Assembly (NCBI GenBank): GCA_016192455.1
Contig: JACPUC010000012.1
Span: forward strand, 65,735-129,734
DNA: 64,000 bases
Direction of reading: 5' to 3'
From: Candidatus Tectimicrobiota bacterium
GTDB taxonomy: Bacteria > JACPUC01
The position numbers and the translations under genes are program-made. The notes beneath the pieces are model-generated. The model saw only the letters and a list, made by a program, of their open reading frames with translations, did not search any database and was not told where the DNA came from. Each line of letters starts with the position of its first letter. Position 1 is the first letter of the stretch. Positions 40,605 to 50,671 of the stretch are shown here, in pieces.

Positions 40605-40927
40605 GGGGCCATGCGCCGCCGCTGCAGCCTGGCGCCGCCGTCGGCGAGGCCGACCCACGGCTTGCCCGCTGCCGGGCGCCTCCGCTTGCCGCCCTTTCCT
40701 CGCCGCCGAGACGCTGCAACCGCGCGACGGCCTCCTCGGCGTTGCATCGCGCCAACCCGGCAGAGGTCGCGGGAGCCGGCCGCGGCGGGTGCGTTTCGCC
40801 TTGCATCGCCGCGGCAGTTGCGCCATATCAAGGTGGCGGACCGTGCGCCACGCCGCGGTTCGACCGGCGCAGCCCCGCCGCTCCGCGGTCCAGCCGCCCC
40901 GCGCCGTGCGCGCAGGAGAACGCCACC
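40605..40927. other. Gene-free gap
   Basis: GC-rich stretch between the ATPase gene and the first QueG-like gene. Frames here are open only because of base composition. I see no repeat, hairpin or promoter. Confidence 0.5.
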
Positions 40928-41896
40928 GTGGAACTCACCGCCGAGACGGTCAAGGCGAAGGCGCTGGAGCTGGGCGCCGACGTCGTGGGCATCGCCAGCG
41001 GGGCCGTGCTGGATCAGTTCCCGCCCGATCCGAGCCTGCCGCAAACCCCCTCCAGCATCAGCGACCATGACAACAAGAGCGTCATCGTCCTGGCCCGCAA
41101 GTTCGCCTGGGGGCTGACTCGGGTGCCGAAGGCCGACCAGAACAAACTCTACACGGCGCAGCTTGAATTGCAGGGCCTCGAGGAGCTCGCCTACGACCTC
41201 GTCATCTTCCTCGAGGACCACGGCTACCCGGCCATCACCGTGCCCGCCGTGCACACCATGTGGGAGATGCGCCAGGGACTCTACGGTCCGCTGTCGCTGC
41301 GGCACGCCGCCGTCGAGGCGGGGCTGGGCACCCTGGGGCTGAACCTGCAGCTCCTGACGCCGCGGTACGGGCCGCGCGTCATGCTCATGGGCGTGCTCAC
41401 CTGCGCGCCGCTCGAACCGGATCAGCCGATGCACGAAGCGCTCTGCAAAGGACCGGAGTGCGGCCGCTGCCTCCTTACCTGTCCGGGCGACGCGGCCTTG
41501 CACTGGAACATCGACAAAGAGAAGTGCTCCCCGCATGCCTGGCCGTATGGCTGGCAGTACCTCACGAACCACATCAAGGATCTCATGACCGCCGGCTCCT
41601 TCGACGAAAAGTGGGCGCTCGTCAAGGGGAAAGCCACCTTCGAGCTGTGGCAGAGCATGCTCCAGGGGGTGGGGGTGAACTCCGGCTGCACGCGCTGTCT
41701 GGAGGTCTGCCCCGTCGGCGAGGACTACGAGCTCTTCCTGAAGGAGGCGCAGGAGGAGATCCCCGAGGCCACCCCGGAGAAGCAGGCGCGCCTGCAGGCG
41801 ATGCGCGACGCCGAGGAAGCAGGCGATCTGGGGCCGAGCTTCGCGGCCTCGCGGCGGTGGATCGGCGCCTACCCGGCCCTGCGCGTCATCCCATAG
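40928..41896 (+). CDS. QueG-like double 4Fe-4S protein, copy 1
   Basis: A 322-residue protein related to epoxyqueuosine reductase QueG and to the core of reductive dehalogenases. The N-terminal two thirds (ELGADVVGIAS, then LRHAAVEAGLGTLGLN) match the cobamide-binding region of that superfamily. Iron-sulfur ligands follow as CKGPECGRCLLTCP and a later Cys, then CTRCLEVCP, enough for two 4Fe-4S clusters. It lacks a TAT signal, so it is cytoplasmic. The GTG start at 40928 has GGAG upstream and aligns with the start of its neighbour. The catalytic role is unknown; it is not the typical QueG, which is followed by HEAT repeats. Confidence 0.75.
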   Translation: MELTAETVKAKALELGADVVGIASGAVLDQFPPDPSLPQTPSSISDHDNKSVIVLARKFAWGLTRVPKADQNKLYTAQLELQGLEELAYDLVIFLEDHGYPAITVPAVHTMWEMRQGLYGPLSLRHAAVEAGLGTLGLNLQLLTPRYGPRVMLMGVLTCAPLEPDQPMHEALCKGPECGRCLLTCPGDAALHWNIDKEKCSPHAWPYGWQYLTNHIKDLMTAGSFDEKWALVKGKATFELWQSMLQGVGVNSGCTRCLEVCPVGEDYELFLKEAQEEIPEATPEKQARLQAMRDAEEAGDLGPSFAASRRWIGAYPALRVIP

Positions 41897-41966
41897 CGAG
41901 GAGCCAGTTGCCTGGCGGCGGGTCGGTCTCGAGTTGGGCTGAAGAAACGAAGGAAAGGAACCCAGC

Positions 41967-42956
41967 GTGCACCTCACCGCTGCGATGGTGAAGAAGGCGG
42001 CGCGCGAGGCGGGCGCCGATGACGTGGGCATCTGCAAGGTGGAGACGCTCGAAACGTTCCCGCCGAACCCCCAGGCGCCGCAGGTGCCGTCGCGCACGAG
42101 CACGAAGTTCAAGAGCGCCGTGGTGCTCCTCGTGCGCATGGCAGTCGGCGAATTCCGCGCCAAGAACAAGCTCTGCATCATGCACGTCAGCCAGATGGCC
42201 CTGCGCCGCATGGACCGGGCGGCGAACCGCCTCATCCGCTTCCTCGAGCGGCAGGGCTACCCCGCCTTGCAGACGGCGGCGCAGGAGACCGCCTGGGACC
42301 TCAAGGGGGGAAGCTACGGGCTGCTGTCGACGCGCCACGTGGCGGTGGAGGCCGGCCTCGGCAACCTGGGGCTGGAGATGAACCTCCTGCACCCGCGCTT
42401 CGGGCCGCGCTGCGACGTCACCGTCGTGCTTACCGACGCGGACCTCGAGGCCGATCAACGCATGACCGAGACCCTCTGCATCGGCGAGTCGTGCGGCCGC
42501 TGCCTCCTCGCCTGCCCGCCGGACGCCGTGCTGCACTGGAACCTCGACAAGCGGCGCTGCGCCACCTACGCCCAGCCCCTCGGCATCTCCGGCCTCTTCC
42601 GTTACTTCCGCGAGGCCCTGCGCGCCGAGACGCCGCAGAAGAGCTGGGAGTACCTCAGCGCGCCGGCCTTCTACGACAAGTGGAAGAGCCTGCACTGGCA
42701 GATCGGCGCCTTCGCGAGCTGTCCCCGCTGCATCGAGGTCTGCCCCGTCGGCGACGACTACCTCCCCCACCTGGCGGACCGCCATCGCACGATCGAAGAG
42801 AAGACGGACGACAAGGTGGTGAAGCTGAAGCTCTACCGCGACGCCCGCAAGCACAACGAGCCGATCCCCGGACTCGATCCCTGGCGCCTGCGCTGGATCG
42901 GCGAGGAGGGCTACAAGCCGAAGAAGAAGGAGAAGGCAACGAGCCGCGAAGCGTAA
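41967..42956 (+). CDS. QueG-like double 4Fe-4S protein, copy 2
   Basis: A 329-residue paralogue of the preceding gene, made by tandem duplication. It keeps the same architecture: EAGADDVGICKVETLETFPP at the start, TRHVAVEAGLGNLGLEMN in the middle, iron-sulfur ligands in CIGESCGRCLLACP plus a later Cys and CPRCIEVCPVG, and a charged C-terminal tail ending in a Lys-rich run. The two differ widely outside the motifs, so the duplication is old and the proteins have probably separated in role or form a heterodimer. GTG start with AGGAAAGGA upstream, 70 bases after copy 1. Confidence 0.75.
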   Translation: MHLTAAMVKKAAREAGADDVGICKVETLETFPPNPQAPQVPSRTSTKFKSAVVLLVRMAVGEFRAKNKLCIMHVSQMALRRMDRAANRLIRFLERQGYPALQTAAQETAWDLKGGSYGLLSTRHVAVEAGLGNLGLEMNLLHPRFGPRCDVTVVLTDADLEADQRMTETLCIGESCGRCLLACPPDAVLHWNLDKRRCATYAQPLGISGLFRYFREALRAETPQKSWEYLSAPAFYDKWKSLHWQIGAFASCPRCIEVCPVGDDYLPHLADRHRTIEEKTDDKVVKLKLYRDARKHNEPIPGLDPWRLRWIGEEGYKPKKKEKATSREA

Positions 42957-46471: not shown

Positions 46472-47761
46472 TCATGAACCGCGTGCTGCCGCGGCAGCGG
46501 TGGCGGCGGCCGCCACCGGGAGGATGGGGCTGACGGTGAAGCGCAGGGCGCGGTGGGCTTGGCGCAGAGCCTGCTCGACCTGCTGCGGCGAGTCGCCGCG
46601 GGCGAAGATGAAGCCGAGGTAGCTCCCCCCCTCCGGCAGCGGCAGGAGCGCCTGCGAGCTCTTCGCGGTGATGGTCACCTCGTCAATGCCGTCGACGGCG
46701 CGGGCGGCCTCAATCCCCTCCACCCGCTCGTAGATGCCGGGCCGTTCAATCGGCAGCATCATCACCCCGACGGCCCGATCCTCCCGCCGCGGCTCGATCT
46801 CCAGGCCGAGGGCGTGGCGGATGATGAGCTCCTCCAACGACATGCCGGTGCCGAAGCGCAGGGTGCGCGAGCAGAGTCCACCGATGGCGCGCGCGGCGAT
46901 CTCGAGGATGCGCGGCCCCTGCGGCGTCAGGCGCAGCTCGGCGTGAATCGGTCCGCGCACGAGCCCCAGGGCGCGGCAGGCGCGGTCGACCTCCTTGACC
47001 ATGGCGGCCTGCGTGGCCGCGTCTTCGCGTGACGGCGTGACGAAGAGCGTCTCCTCGAAGAACGGCCCCTCGAGCGGGTCGGGCTTGTCGAAGATCGCCA
47101 GGACGCGCAGCACGCCGTTGTCCAGCAACCCCTCCAGCGTCGCCTCGCGCCCCTCAAGGTAGCCCTCGACGAGAATCCAGTCGTCCGCCTCATCGCGCCG
47201 CACGCGCACCTCCGCGGTCCGCAGGAGCGCCGCAACGCGGCGGAAGGCGACGACGAACTCCGCCGGCCCGCCGGCCCGCACCACCCCGCGGCTGGCGGAG
47301 AGCGCCAACGGCTTCAGCACGCAGGGGTAGGCCACCTGGCGCGCGGCGTCCGCCGCATCGGCGTCCAGGGGGAAGCGCGCGAACGGCGGCACGCTCACGC
47401 CCGCGGCGCGCAGGAGCCGGCGCGCCAGGTACTTGTTGCGGCAGGCCGCGGCCGCGGTACTCGGGTTGTGGGGCAAGCCGAGCCGGGCGCTGGCCAGCGC
47501 CGCCGTGCGCACCGGCAGGTCGCCCACCGCCACGATGCCGTGGATGGGATGCTCGCGGGCGTACCGTTCGATGACGCGCGCCGCCGTCCGCGGTTGGTTG
47601 AACCGCAGCGCCAGGGCGCCATCGTGCCAGGGGTCGTCGAGGGAGTGGCAATGATCGGTGCCGAGGGTCACCGCCACGCCGAGCCGCTGGGCGGCGGCGG
47701 CGAAGTCGCGTCCCTCGTACCCCGTCGTGGCGAAGAGGAGGAGGAGCCGTTTCTCATCCAT
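46472..47761 (-). CDS. ATP-grasp ligase, partner of the selenocysteine radical SAM gene
   Basis: A 429-residue ATP-grasp protein. The N-terminal domain (LLLFATTGYEGRDFAAAAQRLG) resembles the preATP-grasp fold. The ATP-grasp core shows PCVLKPLALSASRGV, ILVEGYLEGREATLEGLL and the metal-binding GPRILEIAARAIGG; a C-terminal domain has SYLGFIFARGDSPQQVEQAL. These enzymes join a carboxylate to an amine or thiol through an acyl phosphate, as in the L-amino acid ligases. It lies 123 bases after the radical SAM gene. ATG 47761 is chosen because the fold begins there; ATGs at 47797, 47815 and 47830 are in frame. It may make or modify the substrate of the radical SAM protein. Confidence 0.78.
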   Translation of the reverse strand: MDEKRLLLLFATTGYEGRDFAAAAQRLGVAVTLGTDHCHSLDDPWHDGALALRFNQPRTAARVIERYAREHPIHGIVAVGDLPVRTAALASARLGLPHNPSTAAAACRNKYLARRLLRAAGVSVPPFARFPLDADAADAARQVAYPCVLKPLALSASRGVVRAGGPAEFVVAFRRVAALLRTAEVRVRRDEADDWILVEGYLEGREATLEGLLDNGVLRVLAIFDKPDPLEGPFFEETLFVTPSREDAATQAAMVKEVDRACRALGLVRGPIHAELRLTPQGPRILEIAARAIGGLCSRTLRFGTGMSLEELIIRHALGLEIEPRREDRAVGVMMLPIERPGIYERVEGIEAARAVDGIDEVTITAKSSQALLPLPEGGSYLGFIFARGDSPQQVEQALRQAHRALRFTVSPILPVAAAATAAAAARGS

Positions 47762-47884: not shown

Positions 47885-49300
47885 TTACAGGAGAGCTACC
47901 TGCTCTTCGGTCGGTTCAGCTCAGCAGTACCAGGGCTCGTTCAGGAAGGGGATGCCCTGCCTCAGCGTGCCGCGCATCGCCAGCGACGGCGGCGTCCGCC
48001 CCGCCGCCTCGTGGGCCGCCTGCCAGAGCTGCGCAAAGAGCCGCCGCCGCGTCAGGCCCTGCTGCTCCCCCTCCTTGACGAGCGCCTGCAGGGTCCAGCA
48101 GAGCGTATCCAGGCGGGGATCGCTGTGCGACCAGGGGTAGGAGAGGGAGTCGGGAGCAAAGTCGCCGACCAGGCGCTGCACCTCCTGCAGCTCCAACAGC
48201 CGCGACCCGGCAGGGAGGAGGAGACGCATGGCGAGCTGGATGGGCGCCACGTTCTCGACCAGGTCGAGCTCGACGAGCACCCGCAGGAGCTCCAGGTAGG
48301 TCTCGAAGGTCGTCCAGGGCGAGAAGGGAACGAAGGTCGGCGCCAGCGTCACCCCCGCCTCGCGGCAGCGCGCCGCCACGCGGTGGAAATCGTCGCGCGT
48401 ATGCCCCTTGTCGAGGAGGCGGAGGAAACGATCATCGACCGACTCGACGGCGCTGGTCACGAAAGCGCAGCCGGTGCGGCGCAGCGTTTCGAGGTGCTCC
48501 GCATGCCGCAGCAGGTGCTGCACCTTGATCGTCACATCGTAGGTGAGGGCGGGGAACTCGTCGTGCAGCGCTTCCACCAGGGCCAGCGCGTGCCGCACGC
48601 CGTTGAAGAAGTCGGGATCGCCGAAAGTGAGGTGCCGCGCCCCCGCCGCCACCTGCTGCCGGATGTCGGCCAGGACCACCTGGCGCTGCACGATGCGGAA
48701 CTGTCCGTTGTAGACGGGCACGATGGGGCAATGCCGGCAGCGGTGCTTGCAGCCGCGGCTCGCCTCGGTGTAGCCGGCGAGGCGCGTCTCGCCATCGGGG
48801 AGGAGGAGCTGGGCGTAGCGATGCAGGGGGGGCAGCCCACGGCGCTCGGGCACCTTGAAGGGGAGCTTGTCGAGGGAGATGACCGGCTCGCCCTGCGATT
48901 GGTCGCGGCGCGCGGCGCCCGGGGAGGCGCCGGCGAGACGCAGGCGCTCCACCATGCGCACCAGGCCGGGTTCGAACTCGCCGCCCAGGATGGTCTGCGC
49001 CCCGAGCCGCCTGAGGTACGCCTCGTTCATCGGCGCGTAGAGTCCGTAGAAGCAGAGGTGCGCGCGGGGATTGAGTTGCCTCACCCTGTCGAGCAGGCGC
49101 GCCGCCAGCTTGGTGGCGGTGTGCATCGGCACGTAGAAGGCCACCGCATCGGCACAACTCACCTCGTCCTCGCGCAGCGGCTCCTTCGCCAAGTCCTGGC
49201 AGGAGACGGCGACGCCCGCCTGCGTCAGCCACGCCGCGGGCGAGGCGAGGCCGAAGGGCTGGCGGCCGAGGTCGTAGGTGGAGATGAGGACAACCCGCAT
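47885..49300 (-). CDS. CUAEP-tail radical SAM selenoprotein (B12-binding-like N-terminus)
   Basis: A 471-residue protein if TGA at 47923-47921 is read as selenocysteine. Residues 1-120 look like a cobalamin-binding-type Rossmann domain (STYDLGRQPFGLAS, CFYGLYAP, ILGGEFEPGL). The radical SAM cluster motif is C184-x3-C188-x2-C191 in SRGCKHRCRHC. The C-terminus runs EPWYC, then TGA, then AEPTEEQVALL and TAA at 47887-47885. CUAEP (Cys-Sec-Ala-Glu-Pro) is the tail of a known radical SAM selenoprotein family, from memory. A SECIS-like hairpin lies 15 bases after the TGA. Substrate unknown. It sits between yggX and an ATP-grasp gene on one strand. Confidence 0.85.
47892..47906 (-). promoter_or_regulatory. 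SECIS-like hairpin of the selenoprotein gene
   Basis: On the minus strand AGAGC-AGGTA-GCTCT: a perfect five-pair stem with loop AGGUA in the RNA. It begins 15 bases after the UGA. Bacterial SECIS elements, such as that of E. coli fdhF, have a small stem 15-25 bases downstream of UGA with an apical loop holding GGU, which SelB contacts. Position, size and loop all fit. Confidence 0.7.
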
Positions 49301-49372: not shown

Positions 49373-49678
49373 TTACATCTTGCCTTGCGGCGGCACATAG
49401 CCCGGCGGCAACGCGGCATCCTCGCCAAAGAAGAACTCTTCCATCTGAGAGAGGATGAGCTCGTCCGATTCAGGCTCCGACGGCGTGAGCCGATACTCAT
49501 TGATGACCATGATGAGGAACTCCTTCCACATCTCCCACGCCCGCTGCGAGACGTTCTCGTAGATGCGCGCGGCCAGCTCTTCCGGAGCCATCAGCTTGAC
49601 GATCTCGTAGGTCGTCTCATCAATGCCGGGGAGCTCTTCTGACAGCTTGATGCACTTCACCATGCGCGGCTCGGCCAT
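49373..49678 (-). CDS. yggX: YggX-type iron-trafficking / oxidative damage protection protein
   Basis: A 101-residue protein with the YggX pattern: a single N-terminal Cys (MVKCIKLSEELPGID), then APEELAARIYENVSQRAWEMWKEFLIMVINEYRL and a late helix LILSQMEEFFFGED. In enteric bacteria YggX protects iron-sulfur clusters from oxidation and has been linked to Fe(II) handling. AAGGAG precedes the ATG at 49678. It is the first gene in a run with the radical SAM selenoprotein (72 bases downstream), which is an iron-sulfur enzyme that would benefit from such protection. Confidence 0.8.
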   Translation of the reverse strand: MAEPRMVKCIKLSEELPGIDETTYEIVKLMAPEELAARIYENVSQRAWEMWKEFLIMVINEYRLTPSEPESDELILSQMEEFFFGEDAALPPGYVPPQGKM

Positions 49679-49810: not shown

Positions 49811-50671
49811 TCAGCGGAAGAGCGTCACCAGGCTGGCGCCCAGCACGATCAGGCAGGTGGCGGCGACCACCCGCGTCGTGATGAACTCGCTGTCGCGCAG
49901 CAGCAGGAGGCTGAGGACCATCGAGAAGAGCGGCGCGGTGTTCATGAGGGTGGTCACCACGATGATGTTGCCGAGCTGCAAGGACTTGAAATTGGCGTAG
50001 ACCGCGACCAGGGAGAAGACGCCGGCGCCGCTGAAATGCAGGAGACTCCGCCTGTCGCCGACGAGACCGCGGCCGTGGCTGCGCAGCAGGGAGACGCCGA
50101 CGAGGCAGAGCATGCCGCTCGTGATGGTGATCGCCGCGCCGGCCATGGCATGCGGGTAGAGCTGCAGGCCAAGCTGGCGGAGATTGACCGACACGCCGAA
50201 GGTCAGGGCCGAGAGAATCGGGAAGAGGAAGGCCGCCCGTTGCCTCCGGCCTTCCTCGCGTGGCGCCGTGAGCAGCGCCACGCCACCCACGCAGACGAGG
50301 GTCCCGAGCACCAGCGGCAGCCGCGCCGGCTCGCCGAACGCCGCGATGGCGACCAGCATGGTCACGATCGGCATGGTGGCGATCACCGGGTGGGCGCGCG
50401 TGACGCCCAGCCGGGCGATGCCAAGGAAGCCGAAGTACCTCCCCAGCGCCGGCGAGAGCAACCCGGCGAGGATGAAGATGACGAGGGCCTTGGCGGGGAT
50501 GCTGTCGATCCCACCCGTCCCCAGGAGGATCGACCAGTAGACGAGAATGTTCACGAAGGTGGAGATGACCGTTGCGGAGATCGGTGAGGCGGTGCGCATG
50601 CCCCACTTGGCGAAGATGTTGCTGGCGCCGAACCCGAAGGCGCTGAGCAGGGCGAAGGCCACCGCGAGCAT
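49811..50671 (-). CDS. EamA/DMT-family membrane transporter
   Basis: A 286-residue protein with about ten hydrophobic helices in two EamA repeats (LLSAFGFGASNIFAKWGM in the first and FPILSALTFGVSVNLRQLGL in the second). Drug/metabolite transporters of this type export amino acids, nucleosides or toxic metabolites. The ATG at 50671 has GAGG upstream and starts the first helix; a longer frame upstream is Arg rich and not typical. It ends 39 bases before the yggX promoter and diverges from the dihydroorotase-like gene. Confidence 0.82.
   Translation of the reverse strand: MLAVAFALLSAFGFGASNIFAKWGMRTASPISATVISTFVNILVYWSILLGTGGIDSIPAKALVIFILAGLLSPALGRYFGFLGIARLGVTRAHPVIATMPIVTMLVAIAAFGEPARLPLVLGTLVCVGGVALLTAPREEGRRQRAAFLFPILSALTFGVSVNLRQLGLQLYPHAMAGAAITITSGMLCLVGVSLLRSHGRGLVGDRRSLLHFSGAGVFSLVAVYANFKSLQLGNIIVVTTLMNTAPLFSMVLSLLLLRDSEFITTRVVAATCLIVLGASLVTLFR

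Follow-up and report, generated by a model that had tools for sequence, protein, structure and literature searches.

A radical SAM selenoprotein with a Cys-Sec-Ala-Glu-Pro tail, and its L-amino-acid ligase neighbour, in a Candidatus Tectimicrobiota genome

TGA truncation of selenoprotein genes is routine. The 64,000-nucleotide stretch of a Candidatus Tectimicrobiota contig analysed here (the window) contains a radical SAM gene with an in-frame TGA codon close to its 3' end. Does this codon end translation or encode selenocysteine (Sec), and what might the complete enzyme make? A sequence-only reading had placed the gene at 47885-49300 and proposed read-through of the TGA into a short conserved tail; the interval was correct, and the strand, which had not been given, is minus. 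The features of the gene are as follows.

47885..49300, minus strand: CUAEP-tail radical SAM selenoprotein, 471 amino acids including Sec460, stop TAA; NF040546 match
47921..47923, minus strand: TGA codon for Sec460, which immediately follows Cys459; from the homologue codon column
47892..47906, minus strand: bSECIS-type hairpin AGAGC-AGGUA-GCUCU, at 18-32 nt counted from the U of UGA; comparative support
48728..48751, minus strand: CxxxCxxC motif (C184, C188, C191) of the [4Fe-4S]/SAM cluster; from PF04055 and the homologue alignment
48926..49300, minus strand: residues 1-125, an N-terminal Rossmann domain whose fold resembles that of B12-binding domains; from structure prediction and fold comparison

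The read-through product and its family

With TGA translated as U, the product is 471 residues long; its only in-frame TGA falls at residue 460, and its tail is the proposed EPWYC-U-AEPTEEQVALL-TAA. The CxxxCxxC motif was found as described, as C184-x3-C188-x2-C191. In an alignment of 60 homologues it is invariant, and E455, W457, C459, Sec/Cys460, A461, E462 and P463 are invariant too. Radical_SAM (PF04055, 51.8 bits) was the sole Pfam domain seen in the read-through protein. The family named in the sequence-only reading is indeed NCBIfam NF040546, the CUAEP/CCAEP-tail radical SAM (seleno)protein: the protein matched the profile end to end (residues 3-469 on positions 1-467 of 468) with a score of 629.2 bits against a cut-off of 500. 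The second-best family was ArsL (NF040542) at 287.7 bits, and all other families scored about 44 bits or less. As judged by these scores, ArsL is the nearest characterised relative of the window protein.

A search of the phylum returned only the genome itself, and relatives were therefore taken from GTDB contigs. One scan of GTDB species genomes yielded 537 candidate stretches, indicating a widespread family, and the best 80 were kept. The nearest relatives found were about 66% identical to the window protein, which adds a member to an already catalogued family and does not found a new one; the discovery value of the protein itself is moderate for this reason. Literature searches for the CUAEP name gave no match, and no function of the family has been published as far as the literature search shows.

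Recoding of the TGA codon

Among the best 80 of the 537 relatives, the codon aligned with the TGA was TGA in 54 and TGC or TGT in 26, with no other codon, so that only Sec or Cys occurs at the position of residue 460. Homologues ending at the TGA with no conserved Ala-Glu-Pro after it, an outcome that would have spoken against recoding, were looked for; the three residues followed the Sec or Cys codon in all 80. About six changes between Sec and Cys are required on a tree built without the tail. At one locus (L043:2428) a Cys form lies among the Sec forms of its clade (L026, L058 and L077), its hairpin is degraded and selA is absent; apparently Sec was recently replaced by Cys here and the Sec machinery was lost along with it. 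On a plasmid of Thermomicrobium roseum DSM 5159 (L103:5935-7440, WP_012643191.1), the annotated protein stops at ESWFC-TGA although AEP continues beyond it; this annotation is a truncated selenoprotein in a cultured reference strain.

A SECIS-like hairpin had also been proposed downstream of the TGA. Counted from the U of UGA, it begins at 18 nt and its loop occupies nucleotides 23-27. Taken singly the window hairpin is weak: it did not stand out from synonymous shuffles (P = 0.11), and the 74 nt after the TGA folded no more stably than shuffled sequences (z +0.98). Because the plain fold showed no unusual stability, the case for a SECIS element rests on comparison and not on the window sequence, and comparison across the TGA genes bore the proposal out. 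These genes (n = 55) retained a mean of 5.65 of 6 pairs, against 3.70 +/- 0.11 in synonymous shuffles, a difference of 17 SD, whereas the hairpin was barely kept in the Cys genes (n = 26; mean 3.62 of 6 pairs against 3.30 +/- 0.16 in synonymous shuffles). Two distinct stem types were seen, of which GGAGC/GCUCC closes a loop of five bases and GGACC/GGUCC one of four, indicating that both sides of the stem changed together. The loop was AG(G/U)U in 54 of 54 TGA relatives among the best 80 of 537, and variable in the Cys genes. When hairpin and Sec state were compared over independent pairs, the informative pairs all agreed, with only three supported pairs, too few for significance.

The genome was also searched for the Sec machinery, whose absence would have told against the proposal. 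All four components were present: selA, selB, selD and a tRNA-Sec (selC) that scored above the Rfam cut-off and was also called by ARAGORN, with anticodon TCA. The tRNA-Sec locus (L009) carries no sel genes, and selA and selB sit on another contig. The genome's own selD (L101, G000:C3:190907-191827) itself contains an in-frame TGA, and its SelD is therefore probably a selenoprotein too. Across 50 genomes of relatives, selA was found in 24 of 24 with a TGA form and in 20 of 26 with a Cys form (Fisher p = 0.023), and all six genomes that lack selA use Cys.

The chance-level statistics of the window hairpin (P = 0.11; z +0.98) are what would be expected if the TGA were a normal stop and the AEP extension untranslated or accidental. 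That explanation is, in our judgement, almost certainly wrong, given AEP in 80 of 80 relatives, the strict exchange of TGA with Cys codons, the conservation of the hairpin in TGA genes only and the full Sec machinery in the genome. The gene is confirmed by sequence comparison as a genuine selenoprotein gene, and its UGA is predicted to be decoded by the host SelB and tRNA-Sec via the bSECIS hairpin.

Neighbouring genes and predicted fold

Three neighbouring genes lie on the same strand.

46472..47761, minus strand: L-amino-acid ligase, next gene downstream; Pfam ATP-grasp_4 and LAL_C2, start at the conserved MDEKRLLLLF
49373..49678, minus strand: YggX / Fe(2+)-trafficking protein, upstream; Pfam, start chosen at MAEPRMVKCIKL
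49811..50671, minus strand: EamA-family transporter, upstream; Pfam

The ligase comprises the Pfam domains ATP-grasp_4, LAL_C2 and ATPgrasp_N. Relatives of it were found at 59 of the best 80 CUAEP loci (of 537), in 55 cases downstream, on the same strand and within 2 kb. A YggX-like protein was encoded near CUAEP at 44 of these 80 loci, and the ligase co-occurred in every one of the 44. CUAEP, the L-amino-acid ligase and the YggX-like iron protein form a conserved module. The EamA transporter, a possible exporter, had no match in any of the best 80 loci. The conserved ligase neighbour suggests that the enzyme produces an unusual amino acid for later incorporation into a peptide. The sequence-only reading had called the protein a redox enzyme; this was a guess, and both the relation to ArsL and the ligase neighbour point to biosynthesis instead.

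Some loci carry DUF169 or HgcAB-like/CpaM genes instead of the ligase, and in four (L026, L031, L058 and L077) a DUF169 protein is encoded between the CUAEP and ligase genes. At two loci, one acidobacterial and one from a Pyrinomonadaceae genome (L047:11169-13903 and L051:10363-13042), CUAEP and DUF169 are followed by CpaM, which is a corrinoid-associated methyltransferase, and by a corrinoid/ferredoxin fusion of HgcAB-like type, neighbours that raise a possible link between CUAEP and organometal chemistry. Literature searches on DUF169 and on CpaM/HgcAB-like proteins returned nothing of use. Elsewhere in the window, at 40742-42956 on the plus strand, lie two adjacent genes for Fe-S proteins weakly similar to reductive dehalogenases and QueG.

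An AlphaFold2 model of the protein had a mean pLDDT of 92.9, with about 80 in the tail and about 65 in the linker at residues 441-450. Fold comparison of this model placed AprD4 (Z 26.7), OxsB, MgmA, MiaB and TsrM as the closest solved folds, with AprD4 at the top, and the N-terminal domain resembled those of OxsB and TsrM and the cobalamin domain of MetH. These matches indicate that the N-terminal domain has a B12-binding fold. Of the earlier description of this domain as cobalamin-type, the fold accordingly stands, and the domain may bind cobalamin, although the read-through protein had no significant match to Pfam B12-binding (PF02310) and the top structural match was AprD4.

Proposed chemistry and relation to known systems

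ArsL transfers the aminocarboxypropyl group from SAM to arsenic through noncanonical SAM cleavage (PMC8552651), and a JACS 2024 characterisation of the enzyme is cited in PMC12159101. By analogy, the CUAEP protein may carry out ArsL-type SAM-radical chemistry on a soft acceptor at Cys459-Sec460, with ligation of the product by the neighbouring enzyme. The [4Fe-4S] cluster would cleave SAM as in ArsL; a SAM-derived radical, most likely 3-amino-3-carboxypropyl, would join a soft acceptor atom (a metalloid or chalcogen), which the vicinal Cys459-Sec460 pair in the tail would hold or reduce; the ligase would couple the resulting non-standard amino acid to another amino acid; and YggX would supply iron or protect the cluster. 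This chemistry is tentative, and we put its likelihood well short of even. Several observations count against it. None of the best 80 CUAEP loci (of 537) has an arsenic gene of the ArsL clusters nearby; the window protein, at 287.7 bits, falls below the ArsL cut-off of 450 bits; its tail is CUAEP on a longer linker, against RCCLKC in ArsL; and of the 73 loci long enough to show a ligase gene, 54 have one and 19, about a quarter, do not.

Other chemistries were weighed against this proposal. The protein may instead be an enzyme of canonical 5'-deoxyadenosyl-radical chemistry, either AprD4-like or a C-methyltransferase; Cys459-Sec460 would then be a redox pair giving the product radical an electron or hydrogen atom, and the ligase would use the product. 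The best structural matches (AprD4 at Z 26.7, and the B12-radical SAM enzymes OxsB, MgmA and TsrM) and the Cys-Sec pair, a typical redox motif, agree with such an enzyme, but ArsL is far closer by sequence (288 bits, where the other families reach about 44 at most) and cleaves SAM noncanonically (PMC8552651); we regard it as unlikely, while still a serious competitor. A cobalamin-dependent radical SAM methyltransferase with corrinoid partners would account for the B12-binding-like N-terminal fold and for the CpaM and HgcAB-like corrinoid fusion genes after the gene in L047 and L051. It appears distinctly improbable in view of the lack of a significant Pfam B12-binding match and the occurrence of corrinoid genes at only two of the 80 loci.

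A role in arsenic metabolism proper, like that of ArsL, would be in keeping with ArsL as the sister family and with the occurrence of ATP-grasp genes in ArsL and CUAEP clusters alike. In Priestia and Pantoea, plasmid ArsL genes belong to arsenic clusters that include such a gene, and across their ATP-grasp domain the ATP-grasp genes of these clusters are homologous to the window ligase, with E values of 3e-20 and 2e-12. This role is nevertheless rejected as very improbable because ArsR, ArsM, ArsI, ArsN and the aquaporin from two ArsL clusters had no match in the best 80 CUAEP loci (of 537). The ATP-grasp genes of the plasmid arsinothricin-type (ArsL) clusters were located at L104:2483-3706 and L105:7572-8777. 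Their position within ArsL clusters suggests that arsinothricin may itself be incorporated into peptides; among the papers searched for this link, none has both terms.

Taken as a whole, the explanation that combines a selenoprotein, a SECIS element, the CUAEP family and the conserved module is probably right, with the ArsL-type chemistry as its tentative part. More speculatively, and with a low probability in our estimate, CUAEP, the L-amino-acid ligase and YggX could constitute an undescribed biosynthetic pathway that is common among the Acidobacteriota and Methylomirabilota. A metalloid other than arsenic, or a chalcogen, would be offered by the Cys-Sec tail to a SAM-derived radical, and the product, a C-X-bonded amino acid of a new class, would go into a peptide. 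The ligase and YggX context, which seems less known than the family, and the parallel with ArsL make the family worth experiment: the ties to ArsL and the ligase yield a testable proposal both for the product and for the need for selenium in the tail of a radical enzyme.

Compared with NF040546, the window protein is the same in its full-length match, its Sec form and its C-U-A-E-P tail; with no difference found, it is an ordinary Sec-type member. TrsS, SaoC and other radical SAM or Cys-Sec selenoproteins are likewise recently recognised and bacterial, and some of this group have a C-terminal Cys-Sec or metal-related roles, although their families differ from CUAEP (PMC13188914); when the text of this review was searched, NF040546 and the name CUAEP were both absent. 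AprD4, OxsB, TsrM, MgmA and CysS combine Rossmann N-terminal and radical SAM domains as CUAEP does (Z about 24-27), but AprD4 and the B12-type enzymes are only 14-20% identical to the CUAEP protein and do not have the CUAEP tail. ArsL (NF040542) shares about 30-35% identity with the window protein over some 410 residues and the same fold elements. ArsL lies in arsenic gene clusters, whereas the 80 CUAEP loci are without matches to the arsenic genes of two such clusters. The W-x-H-x-DP motif of ArsL is common to CUAEP proteins, with the RCCLKC end of ArsL following soon after it, and both enzymes have a C-terminal vicinal pair, which is Cys-Cys in ArsL and Cys-Sec in CUAEP.
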